NCBI GenBank assembly: GCA_003945285.1
Contig: AP019005.1
Location: 310,001 to 374,000, forward strand
Length of the DNA stretch: 64,000 nucleotides
Origin: Hydrogenimonas sp.
Lineage (GTDB): Bacteria; Campylobacterota; Campylobacteria; Campylobacterales; Hydrogenimonadaceae
Reading direction: 5' to 3'
The position numbers and the translations under genes were made by a program. Shown in pieces: positions 18,870-62,207 of the stretch. Below the pieces are notes generated by a model that did not search any database, was not told the origin of the DNA, and saw only the letters and a list, made by a program, of their open reading frames with translations. The first letter of the stretch is position 1, and every line of letters begins with the position of its first letter.

Positions 18870-19032
18870 CCGATTTCCGAAAATTGGAACAGAACTAAAA
18901 CGCTGCGATGCTTGTAGTCAGGCTGTTTCGGAAAAATTTGAAGCGCACCTGGCGGGTGCGTCGATGATTTTTACGGAAGTGCTTGGCTGCAATTATCGTG
19001 ACGAATTCCTCTGTTTCCGTTTCGGAAATCGG
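18870..19032. mobile_element. Family-R hairpin-type repeat element, intact copy (163 bp)
   Basis: Ends are a perfect 13-bp inverted repeat (CCGATTTCCGAAA and its complement at 19020-19032). The whole element is an imperfect palindrome whose arms meet at CGCACC (centre about 18950) and GGTGCG. It aligns over its full length with the interrupted copy at 53916-54263 (about 75-80 percent identity by eye; equal length once the insertion is removed). No ORF of note and no transposase. It lies between panB and the Hpt gene, which are divergent. Confidence 0.8.
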
Positions 19033-31588: not shown

Positions 31589-31698
31589 ATTGAAACTGAC
31601 CTTACGCAAAATTTGTCAGCCCCGGGATTTGAGCGGAAAAATATCGTTTAAAAAACCGCGCTTGCCCGTCAGGGCGCCGGAGGCGTCAGCGGTTTTCA

Positions 31699-31964
31699 GG
31701 GCACCTCTAAAGGCCCCAGGCATCCATAGCTATGAGAGCTTTTGCGCAGACAAGGCGCTTCGACGCAGGACTGGCCAAAGCCAATTCAAGGAGAAGCAAC
31801 GCAGTATGCGCAAAAGCTCTCATAGCCCGGAGGGAAGAGAAATAGAGCATCATCTTCCGCAAAATATCTCCTTGAGTTACCTTAGGGTAGCCCTGTGTCG
31901 ATCTTTTGCGAAATCTGACGCTCTCTTTCTCTTCTATGGGTGCCGGGGGCCTTTAGAGGTGCCC
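31699..31964. mobile_element. Inner element with 19-bp terminal inverted repeats
   Basis: GGGCACCTCTAAAGGCCCC (31699-31717) and its exact complement (31946-31964) bound a 266-bp segment absent from copy A at 38.3 kb. Copy B at 54.1 kb has only a short GGGCACCCC at the matching place, as if a remnant. Right flank TATA and left flank CA. Inside is a long perfect hairpin (31729-31825). No coding potential seen. Confidence 0.7.
31729..31825. repeat. Perfect 20-bp inverted repeat with 57-nt loop
   Basis: GCTATGAGAGCTTTTGCGCA at 31729-31748 is exactly complementary to 31806-31825. The loop contains GGCGCTTCGACGC and AAGGAGAAGCAACGC segments. It may be a third nested unit or the structured core of the inner element. 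Confidence 0.75.
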
Positions 31965-32052
31965 TATAGATATTTTGCAGCGTCCCGCAGGGCAAATCCC
32001 GTTCGGCGTGCAGATTTTGCGTAAGGTCAGATTGAAATAGAAAGGAGAGACA

Positions 32053-38233: not shown

Positions 38234-38260
38234 TTTCAAGACCTTTGGTTTAGTTGTTCA

Positions 38261-38424
38261 CTGACCTTACGCAAAATCTGCACGCCGAGCGGGATTTGCC
38301 CTGTGGGACGCTGCAAAATATCTAAAAACCGCTGACGCCTTCGGCGCCCTTTCGGGCAAGCGCGGTTTTTTGACGATATTTTTCCGCTCAAGTCCCGGGG
38401 CTGACATATTTTGCGTAAGGTCAG
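38261..38424 (+). mobile_element. CTGACC-end MITE-like element, copy A (164 bp)
   Basis: Bounded by CTGACCTTACGCAAAAT and ATTTTGCGTAAGGTCAG-type ends. The flanks TTGTTCA and TGCTTCA match at 5 of 7 positions, as expected for an old 7-bp duplication. Its interior carries ACCGCTGACGCCTTCGGCGC followed by a GCGCGGTTTTTT hairpin arm. It lacks the inner insertion seen in copy C, so it represents the basic element. Confidence 0.85.
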
Positions 38425-38470
38425 TGCTTCAGATACCGATTCTACACCAATTTAGATAAACGTTGTGTAA

Positions 38471-51516: not shown

Positions 51517-53326
51517 GATTCCGGCAAAAGCCGGATTCTCCTCACTGCTCGAACTGGCTGTAAACATTCCCGTCTCCTACAGCGATACACGCCTATCCAA
51601 AGAGGTGAAGATTTCGCAGATCAATACAATAGAGGCGGAGATTCTTTCGGTATCGAGGCCTCCGAAGAGGCTTCAGGCGACAGTCAGGACACCTATCTGC
51701 GACCGCACCGTAGAGATAACCGTTTTCCACCCCAAACAGTACCACAACGCCCTCTTCAAACCGGGAATGAGACACTTTCTGCAGGGAAAAATAGAGAGAT
51801 TCGGCTCAAGGCTGCAGATGGTCAATCCCAAAATCGTCAAGAGAACCGGAGAGATCGTTCCGAAGTATAGAGGCGGCCTCAGGAGCGATCTGCACAGGGG
51901 CCTGGTGGAGAGAGCCGTGACGGTGGAGACCCTTATGGAAGAGGGGCTGGACAGGGTCAGGGCGGAGCTTATTGTAAGGGCGCACAGGCCGGACGGAAAG
52001 TGGTATGAACTCTATCTGAAGCATGGCGGAGTGGGGCCCAGAACCGTGGAGGCACTCAAGTTTGCGGAGGCGTTGGACTACTTTTCGAGAATGATGGGCA
52101 GGCGAATCAGGTTCGAAGCCAAAAAGAGGCTCGCCGGGAGCATCGAGCCATTTTTGCAAAGGCTTCCGTTCGAGCTTACGGAGAGCCAGAAACGCGCCAT
52201 AGCGGATATAAAAGCCGATTTAAACAGCGCTCTGGCCGCCAGGCGGATGGTGGTAGGGGATGTCGGATCGGGAAAGACGATGGTGATTCTCGCCGCGGCG
52301 ATGACGGCCTATCCCGACCTCTCTATCCTGATGGCGCCCACTTCGATACTTGCGAGGCAGCTCTACGAGGAGGCGAAGAGGTGGCTGCCGGAGTATATGA
52401 ATATCGCCCTCGTTACACAGGGGGGTGAAATCGGAGAGATCGGGGATGCCAACTTCATCATAGGAACACATGCACTCCTCTACCGTGACCTCCCCGAAGC
52501 GCAGCTTGTCATGGTGGATGAGCAGCACCGTTTCGGTACGGAACAGAGAAATATACTGGAAAAGATGCACTCCGGCAGCGGGGCCAAACCCCACTTCCTG
52601 CAGTTTTCCGCCACACCTATTCCCAGAACCCAGGCTATGCTCGATTCTGCGCTTATAGATATATCGATCATGGAGTCGGCGCCGTTTGTCAAGGATGTTA
52701 CGACGCAGATAGTCGGCAGGAGAGATTTTGCGAAACTGAAAGATCACATCGCCAAAGAGATTTCGCAAAAGAGGCAGGTTCTGGTGGTCTACCCGCTCGT
52801 CGAAGAGAGTGAGCATATAGGGTATCTCTCTTTGGAGGAGAGTGAAGAGTTCTGGAGAAGGAGCTTCGACGGAGTCTATGTGACCCACGGGAAAGACAGA
52901 CAGAAAGAGGAGGTTCTGCAGGAGTTTGCCCAAAAGGGAAACATTCTGCTCACTACGACTGTCATTGAGGTGGGTATATCTCTGCCTAGACTATCTACTA
53001 TCGTAATAGCCGGAGCGGAGAGGATGGGACTTGCGACTCTGCACCAGCTCAGGGGACGCGTGGGAAGGACCGGTCTAAAGAGCTACTGCTTTCTCTTTAC
53101 GAACGATACCGGAAACGAGAGGCTGAAGGCCTTCGTAAAGACAAAGAGCGGTTTCGAGATAGCGAAACTCGATCTTAAGTTCAGGAAGTCGGGAGATATC
53201 CTGGGCGGTAAGATTCAGAGCGGGAGAGAGTTCAAGTGGCTTGATATGGCTGAAGATGAAGAGATAGTGGAGATGGCGAAAGAGGCGGCGGCGGAGAGGC
53301 TCGGCCTCTCCGATTGGAATCAATAG
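51503..53326 (+). CDS. recG: ATP-dependent DNA helicase RecG
   Basis: 607 residues, shorter than the about 690 of E. coli RecG. OB-fold wedge domain (residues about 20-140), then helicase motif I GDVGSGKT near 252, motif II DEQHRFG near 337, motif III FSATPIPRT near 373, motif VI QLRGRVGRTG near 515, and the C-terminal TRG-like helical region. RecG remodels stalled forks and branched DNA. The ATG at 51503 lies within the preceding gene. It converges with hpf (7-bp overlap). Confidence 0.95.
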   Translation: MRKSEIPAKAGFSSLLELAVNIPVSYSDTRLSKEVKISQINTIEAEILSVSRPPKRLQATVRTPICDRTVEITVFHPKQYHNALFKPGMRHFLQGKIERFGSRLQMVNPKIVKRTGEIVPKYRGGLRSDLHRGLVERAVTVETLMEEGLDRVRAELIVRAHRPDGKWYELYLKHGGVGPRTVEALKFAEALDYFSRMMGRRIRFEAKKRLAGSIEPFLQRLPFELTESQKRAIADIKADLNSALAARRMVVGDVGSGKTMVILAAAMTAYPDLSILMAPTSILARQLYEEAKRWLPEYMNIALVTQGGEIGEIGDANFIIGTHALLYRDLPEAQLVMVDEQHRFGTEQRNILEKMHSGSGAKPHFLQFSATPIPRTQAMLDSALIDISIMESAPFVKDVTTQIVGRRDFAKLKDHIAKEISQKRQVLVVYPLVEESEHIGYLSLEESEEFWRRSFDGVYVTHGKDRQKEEVLQEFAQKGNILLTTTVIEVGISLPRLSTIVIAGAERMGLATLHQLRGRVGRTGLKSYCFLFTNDTGNERLKAFVKTKSGFEIAKLDLKFRKSGDILGGKIQSGREFKWLDMAEDEEIVEMAKEAAAERLGLSDWNQ

Positions 53327-53859
53327 AGTCCGAAACGGCCGTCACCGCGTCTGTAGAGTACGCGCATTCGGCCGTCGATGTCGTTGAATACCATAAACTG
53401 TTTCTCGGGAGACTCTTTGAGAAGCGTAAGGGCCTCTTCAATCTCGAGCGGCTTGTAGAGGTCGAGCTCCATAGGTACGATCTCGTCGGAGTCGTCAGCA
53501 AGCGCGGCTGCGATCTCCGCCTCATGTGCGGCCGCAAGCTCGTCGGGTCGGACGGATTTGTGCTCGGTCACCTTGTCGTGATGGCGTCTGAGCACCTTCT
53601 GCGCACGGTCGATCGCGAGATCCACGGCCGCATAGACATCTTTGTCCTTCTGGCGGATCACAACGGTGTTTTTGTTCGCCATATGGATGACGAATTCGAC
53701 ACTGTAGCCTTTCTTTCCGTTCTTTTCATCCGCGTCTACTACGACACGTGTGGATATAATGTCGAGATTGTACTTTTTCAGACCGTCGATAGCGTTCTCT
53801 ATATGGTCTTTGATGGCATCGGTCAGCTCGAAATGGCGACCTACGATGCTTATGTTCAT
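53320..53859 (-). CDS. hpf: Ribosome hibernation promoting factor, long form
   Basis: 179 residues. N-terminal S30AE domain (NISIVGRHFELTDAIKDHIE; DKDVYAAVDLAIDRAQKVLRRHHDK) and a C-terminal dimerisation domain (ALTLLKESPEKQFMVFNDIDGRMRVLYRRGDGRFGLY), joined by an acidic linker. Long HPF dimerises 70S ribosomes to 100S under starvation. ATG at 53859. It converges with recG; mobile elements lie upstream. Confidence 0.95.
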   Translation of the reverse strand: MNISIVGRHFELTDAIKDHIENAIDGLKKYNLDIISTRVVVDADEKNGKKGYSVEFVIHMANKNTVVIRQKDKDVYAAVDLAIDRAQKVLRRHHDKVTEHKSVRPDELAAAHEAEIAAALADDSDEIVPMELDLYKPLEIEEALTLLKESPEKQFMVFNDIDGRMRVLYRRGDGRFGLY

Positions 53860-53915
53860 CGTATAACTCCTTTATATAGTGTGTTCGGCAACATTGTATC
53901 AAACAACGGCTTAAG

Positions 53916-54263
53916 CCCAAATCTCGAAATAGAATAGTTTGAAATCGTTGCGATGCTTATAGTCAGGCGGTTTCGGAAAAATTTGAGGCGTACCCGTCAG
54001 GTGCGTCGACGGTTTTCTAGGAAGTGCATAGCTGTAATGATCGTAATGACTGACCTTGCGCAAAATCTGCACGCCGAGCGGGATTTGCCCTGCGGGACGC
54101 CGCAAAATATCTATAGGGCACCCCTAAAAACCGCTGATGCCTTCGGCGCCCTGACGGGCAAGCGCAGTTTTTTGAACGATATTTTTCCGCTCAAATCCCG
54201 GGGCTGACAAATTTTGCGTAAGGTCAGTTAATGAGTTCTTCTATTTCCAGTTCGAGATTTGGG
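53916..54263. mobile_element. Family-R hairpin-type element interrupted by CTGACC-element copy B
   Basis: Ends are perfect 13-bp inverted repeats (CCCAAATCTCGAA at 53916-53928, complement at 54251-54263), flanked by 5-bp direct repeats TTAAG at 53911-53915 and 54264-54268. Removing the 178-bp insert and one 7-bp duplication leaves 163 bp, exactly the length of the copy at 18870-19032, with which it aligns end to end. Its right edge abuts the stop codon of the pilin gene at 54264. Confidence 0.85.
54050..54227 (+). mobile_element. CTGACC-end MITE-like element, copy B (178 bp), inside a family-R element
   Basis: Ends CTGACCTTGCGCAAAAT and ATTTTGCGTAAGGTCAG; flanks GTAATGA (54043-54049) and TTAATGA (54228-54234) match at 6 of 7. 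The interior matches copy A, except for an extra ATAGGGCACCCCT at the site where copy C carries the 266-bp inner element. The host family-R sequence continues on both sides, proving insertion. Confidence 0.88.
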
Positions 54264-54701
54264 TTAAGGCTTTTGTATGGTGCGGCGGTGGTATCTGACC
54301 GTTTCATTGGTATCGATGTCACGGTAGGTCACAATCGTATCTATCAGAACGGTCCCGTTCGATTCGGCGGTTGCAACCGCATTGTCCAGGATGCGGTTTG
54401 GACTGCACGGCAGATTGTTTCCGAAATAGAAGAGTGACATATTGATGTCGAATACCGTACCTCCGTGAGGATATTGAAGATTGATCTGCTCGATGCAGTC
54501 TTTACTGTTGTCGTGTCCCGATATCGCAAGCAGAGCCAGCTCGGTAGAGCTCTTTGCAAGCAGCTGCGCCTGCTCTCTGAGGTAGAGGTCGCTTGTCTGT
54601 TTCGTCGTCTGGGAAGAGAGCGAGAAGGCGAGCATCATGAGGATGGCTATCAGGACCATAAGAAAAATTGCGGAAAGCAGGGTAAATCCGTTTCTCATCA
54701 A
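54264..54701 (-). CDS. Minor pilin/pseudopilin without Glu5 (PilX/GspK-like position)
   Basis: 145 residues. A type III signal (MMRNG / FTLLS) is followed by a hydrophobic helix (SAIFLMVLIAILMMLAFSL). The residue at position 5 of the mature protein is serine instead of the usual glutamate, as in GspK-type tip pseudopilins. One cysteine pair (DCIEQ, LPCSP). It is the last gene of a four-gene operon and overlaps the upstream pilin gene by 4 bp. A family-R mobile element begins right at its stop codon. Confidence 0.75.
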   Translation of the reverse strand: MMRNGFTLLSAIFLMVLIAILMMLAFSLSSQTTKQTSDLYLREQAQLLAKSSTELALLAISGHDNSKDCIEQINLQYPHGGTVFDINMSLFYFGNNLPCSPNRILDNAVATAESNGTVLIDTIVTYRDIDTNETVRYHRRTIQKP

Positions 54702-55606
54702 AACACCACCTTCTCTTTGCAGACAGAGATGTTGTTATCTATTATCTTCTCGCCTGCGCAGAGTTTTATGCGCATGACGTCTCCGTCCTGCTTGAATTTG
54801 AATGTCGTTACATTTTGGAGCAGCAGGTTTTTGAATACATTTTGAGCAGTGTCAAACCGTTCGCCCTTCCACGGCTGGTAGTTCCAGTATAGAACAAGAT
54901 CACAGTTGTTTTGACAATCCAGGGGGTCGGGAGCGATCGCGAATGCCGTCCAGACGAGTTTGTAGCGCTCATATATATCCGTCGGTCTGGTAGGGTCCGA
55001 TATCTCAAATGCGGTATCGGACGTTATGTTTATATTGAACACATAGTCGCTGTCGTTTCCGTACCATCCGAATCTGCTTATGTTGAAGTCACCCCCCGTC
55101 TCCGGGAAGATTATCGCGGCATCTCCGATATTTGCGCTGTCGTGTGAAAGAGTATCTATGAGATTCCACTCGGAGAGCAGACGGCTGCCCGGTGTGGATA
55201 TGACGGTCTGGGTGGAGTTGTCCACATCTATAAACCCGCTCCATATCGGTTGGAAATAGTTGAGGGTCGTGTCGTCGTATTCACCTCTTAAGCCTGTTTC
55301 GTCATAGCCTATCCACTCCAGAATTGTGTAGCTCTCGTCGAGTCTGGGGTCGGCGGTTGTTATGAAGTCGTCAAGATCCGACGTCACCCCGATGGCCGAA
55401 GACTTTATGCGGTACTGCAGCCTCTTGGCTATCTGCTCCAAAGCGATCTCCGTCTTTGTCTGCAGGGAGTTGATCGACCTTGTGATCAGGTAGTTTTCAT
55501 ATATCTTCGCATATATCTCGGATCCGATGGCTGCGACAATGCCGAAGACCAGTATCACGAAGGTCAGCTCGACAAGCGTAAAAGCTCTTCTCAGATATCT
55601 CATCAC
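54698..55606 (-). CDS. Minor pilin, PilW-like
   Basis: 302 residues. A short basic leader (MMRYLRRA) precedes FTLVELTFVILVFGIVAAIG, with Glu5 present, the class III prepilin cleavage site. The long C-terminal globular domain (about 260 residues) has two cysteine pairs (DCQNNCDL, LCAGEKIIDNNISVC). Size and place after a PilV-sized gene fit PilW. Overlaps both neighbours by 4 bp. Confidence 0.8.
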   Translation of the reverse strand: MMRYLRRAFTLVELTFVILVFGIVAAIGSEIYAKIYENYLITRSINSLQTKTEIALEQIAKRLQYRIKSSAIGVTSDLDDFITTADPRLDESYTILEWIGYDETGLRGEYDDTTLNYFQPIWSGFIDVDNSTQTVISTPGSRLLSEWNLIDTLSHDSANIGDAAIIFPETGGDFNISRFGWYGNDSDYVFNINITSDTAFEISDPTRPTDIYERYKLVWTAFAIAPDPLDCQNNCDLVLYWNYQPWKGERFDTAQNVFKNLLLQNVTTFKFKQDGDVMRIKLCAGEKIIDNNISVCKEKVVF

Positions 55607-56289
55607 GGCTCCACGTTCCGGTAGTAGTATTTTATCTCCCCTATATTGGTGCTGAAGGCCCTGAGGACGACCCTCTCCCCGTTATCGGAGATGACCGTAG
55701 ACTGCACCATCTTAATGTTGGTGGAAACGGTTGCCGGCGAGGTGCTGATAGTACCGCTTAGCGTTTTAAGGGTGTAGTCGAAATCATCGCTTATATAGGT
55801 GACGTTTATATCCGATGTGTAGGATCTTTTGTAGTCGGTTTTGCCCCCGGTTGCACTCTGCGCTATGAGGGCCTGTCCGCTACCCATCAGGTCGTCGATA
55901 TCGTCCAGGTCGCCGCCGTCGCTTCCGAGTTGGCCCGGGGGGGTGGCTGATCTCTGGGTGTTGTAGCACTTTCTTCTGTATGTCCCTTTGAAATTACCGA
56001 CTCTCCGTCTGCCGTCGGTAAAATCCCGGCACGAAAGATTTACATCACCGTCGGTATCGAGAATCTTGGCGTAACCGCCGTTTATGGTCTCGTTTGTCTC
56101 CTGCTCATCCCACCTGTAGCTGAGAATGTTGACGACCTGCGTCAGCCCAGCCATAACCGCCTCCTGTCTGAAAGAGGTCTCTACGTTTCTGGAAGTCTCC
56201 GCCAGAATCAGCGGTATGCTCATGAACGCTATACCGATAACGACGATAGATACGATAAGCTCTATCATCGAGAATGCCCTTCTCACCAC
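55603..56289 (-). CDS. Minor pilin, PilV-like
   Basis: 228 residues. Leader MVRRA precedes FSMIELIVSIVVIGIAFMSIP with Glu5. The C-terminal domain has Cys in LSCRDF and RRKCYN. The gene starts inside the 3' end of the giant protein gene (7-bp overlap), so its translation depends on it. PilV-like identity is inferred from size and order. Confidence 0.8.
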   Translation of the reverse strand: MVRRAFSMIELIVSIVVIGIAFMSIPLILAETSRNVETSFRQEAVMAGLTQVVNILSYRWDEQETNETINGGYAKILDTDGDVNLSCRDFTDGRRRVGNFKGTYRRKCYNTQRSATPPGQLGSDGGDLDDIDDLMGSGQALIAQSATGGKTDYKRSYTSDINVTYISDDFDYTLKTLSGTISTSPATVSTNIKMVQSTVISDNGERVVLRAFSTNIGEIKYYYRNVEP

Positions 56290-59200
56290 TCTATCCTTCT
56301 GTTCGTGCTCTTGCTGGCGTTTGTCTCCACCGTTTTACCGAGTACGCCTATGCCGGCCCATTGGCCCGCCACACCTTCGAAAGTCACATCGTAGTATACC
56401 CTTCCGTCCGTAAAAAACCTGTGATATCTAAGCCACGGCTCCGTGGTTACGATAACTCTTGTTTTATGGGGCCTGCTCTCTCCTGTATATGCGATTTTCG
56501 GTGAATACCTTCCGTTCGATATGATATGTTCGTAGGGGTCGTTCTGAGATAAATCGTTGATCATTACAGTCGTATCGGGTATGCTGAATCTTATCCTGGC
56601 TTCCAGTGCCGTTACATTGCCGTCATTTCCGGTATGGAGAGGGTTTATCCACCAGTTTACATCGTCTACGCTCTCCCTCCATCCATTCAGTGCGGTAATG
56701 CCGAAGCTTCCGCAGTCAACTTCAATGGGATCGCAATAGACCTCTGCGTAGATAGGTGTTTCGAATTCGCTCTCTTGCGTCCTGTAGTCTGGTGCATGGA
56801 GCCGTCCGTAATAGATGTATCTGCCGAATGTGACGCTCAGGTTGCCTTCCGGGTCGTGGTTGTTTTTCAACTCTGCAAAGTTTACGCACGACGCTGCATT
56901 CGAACAGGTTACGTTTATCTCTTGTATATCTATTCTCATCGGCTCTACTCTGACGGAGCTGTTTCTGTCGATGTTTAAGGCAAGATCGGCAAAGGAAGCG
57001 CCGTTTTTGAAGCGTGAGGCCGCTATAGTGTCGATATCTTTGTTATCGGTCGTGTTGGTTTCGGTCGAGTTGATATCGTAATATCTTAGAAGCGCCGGTT
57101 CGCTCAGCGTATTCTCCGCGGGATTCATCGCTCTTTCGAAGGTCAGGTCGATATCTTGAGAGTAGCACTGGGCGGAGAAGTTGGTCAGAATCGCACCGTT
57201 TCTTCCCCTGGCTAATACCGGGCCGCTGAATCTTATGGACATGTTGTAGTCCTCTCTCACATCGTTCATATATATGAAACTGTCGTTCGGGGCGGTTACA
57301 GAAATCCCGCTTATATCGAAAGAGTAAGGCCTGAATGAGATATTTATGTCTGTATGGTTCTGATCGAAATTGGAGGATATGATACACCCTACTGTCCCCT
57401 CCTGCGGTACGGCTGTATAGCCGTCATTGCCGAACGGGATACAGTCCTGCCCCCATCTGCCCGGATTGTCCACCCTGGTCCACTCCGAATCTCTCAGTAC
57501 GAATCTGTAATCCCCGACATTGTTGTGGGTGACCCTGTTGCTGCCGGAGCCGTTCCAGAATATGAGTCTGTATGTCCTGTTGTCGTCGTTGTTGCAGTTG
57601 AGTGAGGCGGGAAAGCTGCTTACGATCCCCACATTGGTAGAGTTCTCCTGAACGGGTCCGGCCGGGAAGAGTTCCGCAAATCCCTGTACGTATCGGTCGG
57701 CGGCACTATCGCTTCCATATCGGGTAGCGATATAGTCTACCGAATAGTTGTAGTCCGCCGCCAACGGAACCCTCAGCGTGGAGTTGTTCTCAGTTACAAA
57801 AGACCTTGTAGCGGAGAGGGAGTTGTTGTCGTCGTAAACGGTTATCCTGTAGCTCTCCGGCCTGATGGAGAAGTTGTCTCTCGAGCATATAGGTTTGCCG
57901 TAGTTCTTTCTAAGGCACCGGTAGCATGTGCCCGGGGCCTGGTTCCCGTCGCACTCCTGCTTGCAGAGAGTATCGAAAGAGGCGAATTTCTCATCGTAGA
58001 GATTTTTATAGCATGTTTCGTCGGTTCTGCTTCCGCACTCGTTCTTGACAAGAGTGCTTTCGTTGTCCTCGAGGTACCATATTCTGAAAGCGCTGTTTCT
58101 CATCGCCAGCAGTATGTTGTGGGATATGGCGTCCGTAAATGCACTGTCTTCGAATCTGGCGAAGACGGGATTCGATATATTTGAGTCGGGGTTGTAGCAT
58201 GAAGCGTTCGTGTCACTTTTGAAGAAGTTGACGTTTATAAGCTCCACCTCGATATCGGTCTTTATGCTCTTCGTTGTCTCGAGATCCGTATCGTAGAATA
58301 CCCCGAAAACGTTAAACGGCCTTCCCGAGACTTGCGTTGCAAGGTTGTAGGTACCTGGCTGTTCCGGGTCGCTTATTATGTTGAAGACTCCCCACTCGGG
58401 TGCGTAAAGCGTAGAGGTTGGGCACCTGCTCCCCTCGTTGAGCTCCCTGTATATCGTTACCGGACCGCTTCCATAGTCTACGGTGAAGTTGACGTCGAAG
58501 ATGAAAGATGTCTCCAGTCTCGGCTGGGAGTCGTTGGTGTCGTAGTCGAAGAGTATGTAGTGGCTCTCGTTGGAGTTGAGAGTACCGCCGTGCTCTGAAG
58601 TCGCATCGTTACCGAAGTAGAGACTGAAACCGGCGTCGCTTTCATAGTGGACAAGGTCGCCGGCAGGTTCATATTCGTTTATGTTGTTCGGCGCTATTTT
58701 TACACTGTCGCGCTTGTATGTCAGCATAGACTTGTCTTTAACGGAAGCGGTAAACTCCGCATTTTCAAGCGGGAAATCGCCCTCCAGACTTCTGATGAGC
58801 AGGTGGGTTCTTAGCGGCTTGCCCGGTGCCTGCAGGTGGAGGGTTGTGTTTACATCATTGGTTGCGCTGTCTAGAACGTATCCGTCTATATCGAACGTAT
58901 AGTCGTAGCATACGGCCGGTTTGTAGAGTTCGGCGGAGAAGGCCATCATGCTCGGTGTGATATAGTCGTTATTACTGTACATCTTTATATAGACGGCATT
59001 TATGTAGGGGTTGATGTCTCTATAGCCCTCCATAAGTTCGGAAATGTCGTAATTATCTACATCGACCCCGACATTGTTTATACTGAGGTTGTTGTCTACA
59101 CCGTTTACAATGTCGTCTCTCAGAATATTGTCGAGCCTCGCATCGAACATATTGTCCCTGTTACCTACGAAGGTTCCCTCCTCCAGCCCAGGCATATATT

Positions 59201-60872
59201 GATACTCGCCGTCTATGGCGTCGCTTATCTTCATCCAGTCTTCTGAGTTGTTGTCCGGTGTTCGGCCGTATCTATACTCCCCCTCTCCGGAGAAGACCGA
59301 TAGCTGGGCGGAGATCTTTCCTGTTTCCGGGAGCCTGAAGCCGCTTATCTCTATAGGGTCGTTGTTTAGCCCTATAGATATGAAGCCGTTGTAGATGGAT
59401 ATGTTTTTCGGGGTCCCTTTTTTGTAGTCTTCGGCGTATATTATCACCAGTGACCATCCCCCGAAGGCACCGGGTGATATCTCCCTTCCCTCCATCGTAG
59501 TCAGGTTTGCGACCGTGAAGGTGTTTTTACCGGGAGTTATGGCATCCCCTGAAAAGAGAGATGTTACATCAGCATATGCACTGTATGTATCTCCGTTACC
59601 GCTGGTATATACATGAAAAGTATTGGCTTTTACATCGTTGTAGCCTCTGCCGTTGATATCCAGTTTTATATCTGTTGCACCGGTAGCGGTTATATCGAAA
59701 TGGTCCAGGTCTATAGTCGTCCCCTCTCCTACCTCTACGAAGTCATACCCTGAACCGTTCTCCACCGCGTAATGGATCGGATAGTCTTTATCTACACTGA
59801 TACGCCCCTGCCAGAAGAGCCCGGCCCATATGATACCTGTTGAAGCGTTATATGAGTCTGGAATCATCACATATGAGGAGGTTGAGTTCCAGGTGGAGCC
59901 GTCGGTGTCGATATCGAGGTATTTGGCCACACGCATATTGCTTGTAATGTCCTGGTAGTCGGTGTCGCCATGGCACGTTCCCCCATACCCTTCCGTCTTT
60001 TCGGTAAGGCACAAAACCGTATTTCCGGCAATCTTGTAGTCTCCGACGAGGTTGCGTGAAGCTGGCGGGTTGACGATATAAAATGGGAGTTCGACGCCGG
60101 ATGTGAAGATGGTTTGAACCTCTATTGTTACGGTTGCCGTATCGGATAAGTTATTGTCGTCGGTTATCGTATATGTGAAGCTGTCCGTACCTATGAAGCC
60201 GGCATTCGGCGTGTATGTGAAGTTTCCGTCGGAGAGTATCTCCACAGTTCCGTTGGAGGGATCTGTGTGGGAAGTTACCGTTATGTTCGACCCGATGTCG
60301 TTTGCAAGGAGATTGTCCGTAAGGGGGTTGTCCGGTGTGGTGGTGAAGCTGTCGTCGGCCGCATCGATAACAATCTCCGTGGTGACTGTTATATTATCAA
60401 GCAGGAGTTTTTCATCCAGGGGTGCTGAAACGTCATACATGATTTCGAGAGTCAAATCTCCGTTATCGTCCGTTGTGGAAATGAACCAGTAACGGTTGTA
60501 GAGATATTCCGTACTTCCGTCGGCACCGGGGAAGACCTCCCCGTCGACAAGCGGTGACCCGTTGGCGGAGATGTAAATGTAGTCTATCGCCCCTCCGCTG
60601 CTCTCCCATCCTCCGACAGCCCATAGGTCTAATATTATATAGACCCTTTTGTTGGCATTGCTGGAGTTTAACTCATATGTTTTGCTCTTCCACTGTCTCT
60701 CTCTGTCTATTCTAAGGACTTGCGAATTCACCGGGTCGCCGTAGGTGACAAGAGATGTGCCTGTATCGGTCCATCCGTTTTTCGATGTTTCAAAGTCGTC
60801 CGTGAGCGTTGCTCCCCATACGGCACTCGTCAACAGAGTTATGCAGATTGCAAATATACCAAACAGTTTCAT
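56283..60872 (-). CDS. Giant secreted protein, possible pilus-tip adhesin
   Basis: 1529 residues. Signal peptide (MKLFGIFAICITLLTSAVWG). Residues about 22-170: jelly-roll, carbohydrate-binding-like region (DDFETSKNGWTDTG). About 175-265: cadherin/Ig-like Big domain (DDSFTTTPDNPL...NFTYTPNAGFIGTDSFTYT). About 270-580: a block with GIIWAGLFWQG, SAYADVTSLF, TFTVANLTT and GGWSLVIIYAED, which I recall from large surface proteins. About 930-1010: cysteine-rich segment (CKQECDGNQ, GTCYRCLRKN). The last 500 residues are beta-rich. No PilY1 propeller motif was recognised. AAGGAG precedes the ATG. It heads the operon with three minor pilins, which is the basis for the tip-adhesin proposal. Confidence 0.7.
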   Translation of the reverse strand: MKLFGIFAICITLLTSAVWGATLTDDFETSKNGWTDTGTSLVTYGDPVNSQVLRIDRERQWKSKTYELNSSNANKRVYIILDLWAVGGWESSGGAIDYIYISANGSPLVDGEVFPGADGSTEYLYNRYWFISTTDDNGDLTLEIMYDVSAPLDEKLLLDNITVTTEIVIDAADDSFTTTPDNPLTDNLLANDIGSNITVTSHTDPSNGTVEILSDGNFTYTPNAGFIGTDSFTYTITDDNNLSDTATVTIEVQTIFTSGVELPFYIVNPPASRNLVGDYKIAGNTVLCLTEKTEGYGGTCHGDTDYQDITSNMRVAKYLDIDTDGSTWNSTSSYVMIPDSYNASTGIIWAGLFWQGRISVDKDYPIHYAVENGSGYDFVEVGEGTTIDLDHFDITATGATDIKLDINGRGYNDVKANTFHVYTSGNGDTYSAYADVTSLFSGDAITPGKNTFTVANLTTMEGREISPGAFGGWSLVIIYAEDYKKGTPKNISIYNGFISIGLNNDPIEISGFRLPETGKISAQLSVFSGEGEYRYGRTPDNNSEDWMKISDAIDGEYQYMPGLEEGTFVGNRDNMFDARLDNILRDDIVNGVDNNLSINNVGVDVDNYDISELMEGYRDINPYINAVYIKMYSNNDYITPSMMAFSAELYKPAVCYDYTFDIDGYVLDSATNDVNTTLHLQAPGKPLRTHLLIRSLEGDFPLENAEFTASVKDKSMLTYKRDSVKIAPNNINEYEPAGDLVHYESDAGFSLYFGNDATSEHGGTLNSNESHYILFDYDTNDSQPRLETSFIFDVNFTVDYGSGPVTIYRELNEGSRCPTSTLYAPEWGVFNIISDPEQPGTYNLATQVSGRPFNVFGVFYDTDLETTKSIKTDIEVELINVNFFKSDTNASCYNPDSNISNPVFARFEDSAFTDAISHNILLAMRNSAFRIWYLEDNESTLVKNECGSRTDETCYKNLYDEKFASFDTLCKQECDGNQAPGTCYRCLRKNYGKPICSRDNFSIRPESYRITVYDDNNSLSATRSFVTENNSTLRVPLAADYNYSVDYIATRYGSDSAADRYVQGFAELFPAGPVQENSTNVGIVSSFPASLNCNNDDNRTYRLIFWNGSGSNRVTHNNVGDYRFVLRDSEWTRVDNPGRWGQDCIPFGNDGYTAVPQEGTVGCIISSNFDQNHTDINISFRPYSFDISGISVTAPNDSFIYMNDVREDYNMSIRFSGPVLARGRNGAILTNFSAQCYSQDIDLTFERAMNPAENTLSEPALLRYYDINSTETNTTDNKDIDTIAASRFKNGASFADLALNIDRNSSVRVEPMRIDIQEINVTCSNAASCVNFAELKNNHDPEGNLSVTFGRYIYYGRLHAPDYRTQESEFETPIYAEVYCDPIEVDCGSFGITALNGWRESVDDVNWWINPLHTGNDGNVTALEARIRFSIPDTTVMINDLSQNDPYEHIISNGRYSPKIAYTGESRPHKTRVIVTTEPWLRYHRFFTDGRVYYDVTFEGVAGQWAGIGVLGKTVETNASKSTNRRIEW

Positions 60873-61038: not shown

Positions 61039-61803
61039 TCACTCCTGCCGGTCGCTCTTCGTGACTCCATATGCCCCCGAGACGGCTTTGATGAAGGCGT
61101 CTCGGGCTCTGCCGCTCTCCAGGGCCGCATATCCGGCCGCCGTAGTTCCGCCCGGACTCATCACCTCATCTTTTATCAGAGCGGGATGGCTATGGGCGAT
61201 CAGAGTGGAGAAGCCCTTGAAAAGGCCCTCTACCAATTTTGCCGCATCTTTGCGTTTCAGCCCCTCCTTCACCCCTCCGTCGGCCAGAGACTCAGCGACG
61301 AGAGAGAGAAATGCCGGCCCGCTTCCCGCTATGGCGGTCGCTATATCGAGCTCTTTCTCGCTGTCGACCCAGAGAGTCTCGCCGATGGAGCGGAACAGAT
61401 CTTCGGCTTCACCCCTCTTTGCGCTATCACCGGTCAAAGCGGTCATCGACGTTCGATAGGCTGCGGCAAGGTTCGGCATGGCCCTTACGTAGCTTTCTGC
61501 CTTTATCGATCTTTTCAGCTCCCTGATCTGCGTCCCCGCCAGTATGGAGTAGAGGGTGTCGGCCTTCCCTTTGAGCGATGCCGCAACCTCTTTAAGGGAG
61601 TGCGGTTTTACGCACAGGACTACGATCTGCCCGTCGATCTCGTACTTTTCCAGAAGCGCCGTCCTGGCGTGTTTCGAAAGCAGGTTTGTAAACTGCAGCA
61701 GCCTCTCACCGTCTCTTCCGACAATCGTCAGCTCATGCTCCTCCTCGAGACCTTTGGCCAGCGCAAGCGCCATTTTCCCGGGACCTATTATCGTTATCTT
61801 CAT
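61039..61803 (-). CDS. proC: Pyrroline-5-carboxylate reductase
   Basis: 254 residues. Rossmann motif IIGPGKMALALAKGL near residue 5, VKPHSL near 66, RAMPNLAA near 107, and the ProC signature SPGGTTAAGYAALESG near 215-230. It completes proline synthesis with NAD(P)H. Start ATG at 61803 overlaps fliW by 4 bp. The proC-fliW pair next to bamD and lon matches what I recall of C. jejuni. Confidence 0.94.
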   Translation of the reverse strand: MKITIIGPGKMALALAKGLEEEHELTIVGRDGERLLQFTNLLSKHARTALLEKYEIDGQIVVLCVKPHSLKEVAASLKGKADTLYSILAGTQIRELKRSIKAESYVRAMPNLAAAYRTSMTALTGDSAKRGEAEDLFRSIGETLWVDSEKELDIATAIAGSGPAFLSLVAESLADGGVKEGLKRKDAAKLVEGLFKGFSTLIAHSHPALIKDEVMSPGGTTAAGYAALESGRARDAFIKAVSGAYGVTKSDRQE

Positions 61804-62207
61804 GAAGCGTCCTCTTCTTTGTCCATAAAGTTTTTCAGCGGTGCGGCTATCTCGAAATCCGGGTATTTCCGGTTATCTAGTACTATCTGTCCCATCAGCC
61901 TCTTCTCCCTGTTGAAAAGCAGCGGTGCGAGGAAGTTTACACGGGAGTTCTCCAGCGGAGTATCTATTATCATGATATTAAGAACTTCTACCTGCTCCGC
62001 TCTTTCGACCTCCAGGCGCTCCACCGCGCTATCGGGAAGATCGAAGATGTAGTCGTCTCTGAGCAGCGACGGTCTGATCAACGTGAAAGAGGGAGTGCTC
62101 TTTCCGCTTTTGTCGTAAAGCCTGTAGATATTATCGTCTACCTGCTCGAGTGTAACCTCGCTGCAAGACTCGAATCCCAAAATCGGGATGACTGCTTTGA
62201 AATCCAT
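61800..62207 (-). CDS. fliW: Flagellar assembly factor FliW
   Basis: 135 residues. Family pattern: PILGFESCSEVTLEQVDDNIYRL at the start, a central PSFTLIRPSLLRDDYIFDLPDSAVERLEV, and NFLAPLLFNREKRLMGQIVLDN near 95-115. FliW binds flagellin and the translational repressor CsrA, linking flagellin level to translation. Start ATG 62207; divergent from bamD with a 98-bp shared promoter region. Confidence 0.92.
   Translation of the reverse strand: MDFKAVIPILGFESCSEVTLEQVDDNIYRLYDKSGKSTPSFTLIRPSLLRDDYIFDLPDSAVERLEVERAEQVEVLNIMIIDTPLENSRVNFLAPLLFNREKRLMGQIVLDNRKYPDFEIAAPLKNFMDKEEDAS

Follow-up and report, generated by a model that had tools for sequence, protein, structure and literature searches.

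A minor-pilin and giant-protein cluster of Hydrogenimonas is probably a detached tip module of an MSHA-type pilus

In one Hydrogenimonas genome, a very large exported protein is encoded together with three minor prepilins at a site where no pilus machine adjoins them. Which pilus, if any, would such a set serve, and what would the large protein do there? The window, meaning the whole 64,000-nucleotide stretch that was analysed, is C1:310001-374000 of a complete 2.19-Mb genome, and the genes that raise the question, with their conserved neighbours, are as follows (window coordinates):

56283..60872, minus strand: giant exported protein of 1529 aa, MshQ-like (open reading frame with a ribosome-binding site; C-terminal domain links to MshQ/DUF6701)
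55603..56289, minus strand: minor prepilin V, PilV/MshD position, 228 aa (TIGR02532 above cut-off; match to the V pilin of the genome's own MSHA locus, E 2e-18)
54698..55606, minus strand: minor prepilin W, PilW/MshO position, 302 aa (N_methyl above cut-off; match to the W pilin of the own MSHA locus, E 5e-21)
54264..54701, minus strand: minor prepilin X without Glu5, PilX/GspK/MshP position, 145 aa (weak GspK match; match to the X pilin of the own MSHA locus, E 1e-21)
61039..61803, minus strand: ProC (pyrroline-5-carboxylate reductase), conserved neighbour (P5CR_dimer, E 2e-30)
61800..62207, minus strand: FliW, conserved neighbour (PF02623, E 6e-24)
53320..53859, minus strand: HPF/RaiA ribosome hibernation factor, conserved neighbour (PF02482, E 2e-20)

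The original prediction described an exported 1529-residue protein translationally coupled to, and placed ahead of, prepilins of PilV, PilW and PilX size, and this anatomy holds: the giant, V, W and X are four successive minus-strand reading frames running in that order from 60872 to 54264, with overlapping starts and stops. The giant begins with an ATG preceded by a Shine-Dalgarno-like AAGGAG, and the overlaps, whose lengths vary with the start codon chosen, are 7 bp (GTG at 56289) or 4 bp (GTG at 56286, 'GTGA') between the giant and V, 4 bp (GTG at 55606) or 1 bp (ATG at 55603, 'TGATG') between V and W, and 4 bp (TTG at 54701) or 1 bp (ATG at 54698, 'TGATG') between W and X. ProC and FliW lie upstream, and HPF/RaiA lies downstream, followed by RecG on the opposite strand. 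Between ProC and the giant, a G+C-rich hairpin with TTTT after it (z -1.84) suggests that the giant cluster is a transcription unit separate from ProC; a consensus promoter and terminator scan of the cluster region gave matches no more often than chance. The gap between X and HPF (53860-54263) is made up of intergenic repeats of ~130 and ~180 bp that are dispersed in the genome, with partial copies, 78-95% identical, at window positions 18897-18999, 31594-32030 and 38260-38425 and also in L039, L040 and L041.

Structurally, the giant can be divided into the following parts:

60813..60872, minus strand: putative Sec signal peptide, giant residues ~1-20, MKLFGIFAICITLLTSAVWG before A (read by eye from the sequence)
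60108..60368, minus strand: Big_9/cadherin-like domain, giant residues ~169-255 (PF17963, E 3e-20 at 171-250)
58893..60107, minus strand: middle region, giant residues ~256-660 (distant relation to part of a Thermus DUF11-domain protein)
56286..57935, minus strand: C-terminal MshQ-like domain, giant residues 980-1529, ending ...NRRIEW (alignments, hhalign and a survey of C-termini)

The cadherin-like and Cys-rich parts that had been predicted are both there, the former as the Big_9 match and the latter, by eye, as a stretch around residues 900-1000; the predicted lectin-like part (residues 21-168) is unsupported, matching no family in the window giant, and LamG lectin-fold domains are found in its paralogue and relatives. 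Residues 266-659 align with T. thermophilus plasmid records at 23-24% identity (tblastn, E 1e-9). The predicted lack of a PilY1-type propeller extends from the protein to the genome, and PilY1 identity for the giant was rejected: PF05567 has no match in the giant, and its best match genome-wide (E 0.04, below cut-off) falls in a reading frame with a stop. Direct searches of Pfam, NCBIfam and PDB left the C-terminus unnamed and found no solved relative.

From a genomic perspective, the machinery for pili and secretion is present, with three secretins, three PilB/GspE ATPases, two PilT-like ATPases and one prepilin peptidase, and with two MSHA-type machines and one type II secretion system. The full MSHA-type locus at C1:162.5-177 kb holds a LamG giant, V, W, X and a GspH-like pilin, then I, J, K, L, M, N, E and G; its secretin falls just under the cut-off of the MshL equivalog TIGR02519 (241.9 against 250.2). 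The locus at C1:954-964 kb, read from the sequence as MshI-J-K-L-M-N-E-G in order, has a secretin that passes this equivalog (259.9 against 250.2) and no minor pilins beside it; the window cluster is most probably the Q-D-O-P module detached from it. Among the marks of an MSHA tip module, an MshL-type secretin with MshE, G, M and N is thus present in the genome (at C1:954-964 kb), and minor pilins in the MshD/O/P positions adjoin the giant; a single locus is not found, the cluster lying ~590 kb from that machine. The third locus, a type II secretion system at C1:1855-1875 kb, has a secretin that passes GspD and its own prepilins, including a 301-aa GspK-like protein. The MshE of the full MSHA locus (L039:9886-11568) scores above the cut-off for the c-di-GMP-binding MshE motif NF053729, which the MshE of the orphan machine (L040:5549-7291) does not reach, although it has the MshEN domain, and from this motif difference the two MSHA-type pili may be regulated differently. 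Two unlinked prepilin genes at G000:C1:252153-253323 (L073) are each a candidate for the orphan machine's major pilin.

The prepilin signals predicted for the trio are present on V and W, both of which match the TIGR02532 prepilin model above cut-off (with Pfam N_methyl, W is above and V slightly below), and K/X-type pilins normally lack Glu5, as X does (GFTLLSA); its best match is a weak one to GspK (E 1.4e-4, below cut-off). Each of the three matches the pilin in the same position of the MSHA locus at C1:162.5-177 kb (E-values listed above), and profile comparison of the two sets was position-specific, at 99.6% for V with V, 100% for W with W and 99.7% for X with X, the off-diagonal matches being weaker and covering mostly the N-terminal helix. 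By position and order, V, W and X would correspond to MshD, MshO and MshP, following the V. cholerae MSHA gene order (PMC4624765). Profile comparison with Aeromonas MshD and MshO aligned mainly the N-terminal helix, and with Aeromonas MshP X gave no convincing alignment; since these alignments are weak, the MSHA identity of the three pilins rests on the genome's own MSHA locus.

Evolutionarily, the C-terminal ~550 residues of the giant are, on the profile evidence, a divergent MshQ domain (DUF6701, PF20419). The window giant alone gave no significant match to the DUF6701 profile and did not reach the curated cut-off, so its membership of the family rests on profile-profile links. One member of the same-genus set matches DUF6701 directly (1e-12), and in other genera several of the giants at this locus carry it above Pfam's cut-off; the C-terminal set aligned with these syntenic giants by hhalign at 100% (E 1e-64, hhalign E-values referring to single comparisons) over 472 columns, against 0.2% for the reversed control. 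The equation of DUF6701 with MshQ was tested on the MSHA locus of Aeromonas caviae, reached by a tblastn search with an MshL query against plasmids, where mshQ follows mshD-O-P and precedes an mreB-like gene; the gene is split by transposase reading frames, and only its C-terminal piece was used. That piece matches DUF6701 over nearly its full length (6e-99), and DUF6701 is therefore the MshQ domain. A combined Campylobacterota profile (A3) aligned with the same piece at 96.7% over 291 columns, with a YGRL stretch in common, and the controls, one reversed and 12 shuffled, all stayed at or below 0.5%; a control from the middle region of the giants was excluded, because in that part L031, a shorter relative, overlaps the C-terminus. 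A tblastn search of plasmids with the giant's C-terminal domain gave no match. The Aeromonas record (NZ_AP026896.1, L088:17896-24432), in which two transposase frames interrupt mshQ, is 4.9 Mb long and filed as a plasmid, and it resembles a chromosome.

The protein ahead of this C-terminus is variable. Complete giants range from ~800 to 4078 aa and join unrelated N-terminal parts to a common C-terminus; at this locus within the genus they run from 1380 to 4078 aa, and distant members have hardly more in common than the C-terminal ~430-550 residues. In L036 and L037, from other members of the genus, the giants at this site reach 4036 and 4078 aa. The N-terminal modules are LamG, DUF11, Calx-beta, CUB and H-type lectin domains in the relatives and Big_9/cadherin in the window giant. 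Among three close relatives, though, the middle region is 70-87% conserved against 57-67% for the C-terminus, so the C-terminus is the most widely common part, not the slowest-evolving nor simply the most constrained, and the head seems to be swapped out rather than to drift faster.

A search for the same cluster in Campylobacterota found the arrangement FliW/ProC–giant–V–W–X–HPF in most genera examined, a recurrence that is far beyond chance; gene calls in the relatives are mechanical reading frames, and the sampled genomes are not independent. We read 54 loci of the detached type from many genera, chosen for having a W match. The giant stands directly upstream of V in 46 of them, and in all 46 the giant's last residue is tryptophan, mostly preceded by one or two basic ones; giants beside a full MSHA machine end in FR. 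In the other eight the giant is not adjacent to the pilins; seven of these genomes encode one elsewhere, and the remaining one is a draft. V, W and X were likewise missing beside five orphan machine loci, in five other genomes. Matches to the W pilin were found in 158 of the 298 genomes of the phylum, and across all 298 an orphan-type MshE and a detached W occurred together in 120, the machine alone in 21, W alone in seven and neither in 150, at thresholds of E <=1e-175 for MshE and E <=1e-46 for W that were set after the score gaps had been seen; the resulting Fisher p of 3e-51 is not a probability, given related genomes and post hoc cut-offs. A weaker W match is present in 19 of the 21 machine-alone genomes, and all seven W-alone genomes belong to one family (f5). 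In this family (L057, L058, L062, L069) the DUF6701 giants stand alone near MurI and Rho genes, three of them in tandem in one genome (G057), and the FliW-HPF locus keeps the pilin trio and lacks a giant. In G114 and G219, which belong to different families, this search showed a single secretin, related to MshL, one MshE at threshold, and one giant with V, W and X at the FliW-HPF site.

These observations can be read in more than one way. The module could be an alternative tip for the second MSHA-type machine at C1:165-177 kb or for the two together, a reading that draws on both being MSHA-type and on the homology of V, W and X across the two sets; we think it unlikely, because that locus has its own giant, V, W and X and the one at C1:954-964 kb has none, and because genomes of other families with only the latter type of machine still carry the detached module. 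It is more doubtful still that V, W and X are GspI/J/K-like pseudopilins and the giant a secreted effector of type II secretion. The genome does hold a GspD-type secretin and GspE at C1:1855-1875 kb, and X is weakly GspK-like, but that is the sole match to a GspI, J or K model, the trio is not linked to GspC-F, the secretion locus is supplied with prepilins and a GspK-like protein of its own, and the two sampled single-secretin genomes keep the module with only an MshL-related secretin. Least credible to us is the reading that the tip protein was replaced by an adhesin of a truly new class, related to neither MshQ nor PilY1: the window giant's want of a significant direct DUF6701 match and the long N-terminal parts without family matches would suit it, but it is opposed by the profile links, backed by clean controls, that tie the giant to Aeromonas MshQ and to the DUF6701 giants of this locus. 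The original prediction's new class thus falls away in favour of a divergent MshQ/DUF6701 C-terminus beside MSHA-type V, W and X, and its tip-adhesin role, here read as modular, stands as the best reading; likewise, its comparison with PilVWX and PilY1 was right that pilins and giant form one set, and the proper comparison is with MshD-O-P-Q of the MSHA pilus.

We posit, with good though not full confidence, that the window cluster is a detached tip module (Q-D-O-P) of an MSHA-type type IV pilus, that the giant is a divergent MshQ with an exchangeable adhesive head, and that the machine is most likely the one at C1:954-964 kb. Against this count the window giant's missing direct DUF6701 match, the eight loci of 54 without an adjacent giant, the weaker conservation of the C-terminus than of the middle region among close relatives, and the seven f5 genomes with W and no machine-type MshE. 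Mechanistically, the giant would be exported by Sec to the periplasm, where V, W and X may form a priming complex as PilY1's minor pilins do; its C-terminal ~550-residue domain would cap that complex, and the giant would pass out through the MshL secretin on the tip of the pilus and display its replaceable N-terminal head for surface binding, with MshI-J-K-L-M-N-E-G, a set without minor pilins of its own, as the presumed machine. We infer the tip position, the C-terminal docking, the adhesion and the pairing from the gene anatomy, family links, conserved synteny, co-occurrence and part swapping observed here. Whether Campylobacterota as a whole maintain a PilY1-independent family of MSHA tip adhesins, with a constant docking domain and terminal tryptophan tail, heads exchanged wholesale, and an adhesin-swapping locus at a constant place in the chromosome, apart from the machine, is to us an evenly balanced proposition.

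MSHA systems in Epsilonproteobacteria were known beforehand (Denise et al. 2019, PMC6668835), and the cluster belongs to this poorly understood pilus type, in which MshQ is counted as an MSHA-specific component of unknown function (PMC9815625) and differs in length between two Shewanella strains (PMC7439477). The same survey, in which no mention of MshQ was found, reports MSH almost always in one locus (PMC6668835), and annotation methods with that expectation would miss the tip module. The literature searched contained no mention of DUF6701 and no paper combining MshQ with the phrase 'tip adhesin'; as far as the searches reached, the phylum-wide detached Q-D-O-P locus, the assignment of its giants to MshQ and the head-swap pattern appear new. 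This reading gives MshQ a testable role as a modular tip adhesin in place of PilY1, offers in the giants a series of naturally swapped heads on a common base, and would explain why vent and other Campylobacterota carry orphan minor-pilin genes at a distance from their pilus machine.

Among known systems, MshQ with MshD-O-P of Vibrio, Shewanella and Aeromonas is closest, sharing a trio of minor pilins that agree in size and order, a large exported protein of modular build whose C-terminal domain is related, and the MshL/MshE/MshG machine that the window genome also encodes; it differs in that the window order is Q-D-O-P, the module is detached from the machine locus, and the window-type C-terminus, very divergent in sequence, ends in W (often R-R-x-x-W-like) rather than in the IYRREVLH of Aeromonas. 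The FimU-PilVWX-PilY1 complex of T4aP, in which PilY1 and the minor pilins occupy the tip of the pilus and prime it (PMC7541494), is alike in principle, as a minor-pilin complex with a large non-pilin tip protein for priming and adhesion, but the window genome lacks the PilY1 propeller and has an MshL-type secretin. The genome's own second cluster (C1:162.5-167.6 kb, L045/L039) repeats the LamG giant, V, W and X with coupled starts and is homologous at every position, yet it adjoins a full MSHA machine, includes an extra GspH-like pilin, and has a giant that ends in GVKLFR.
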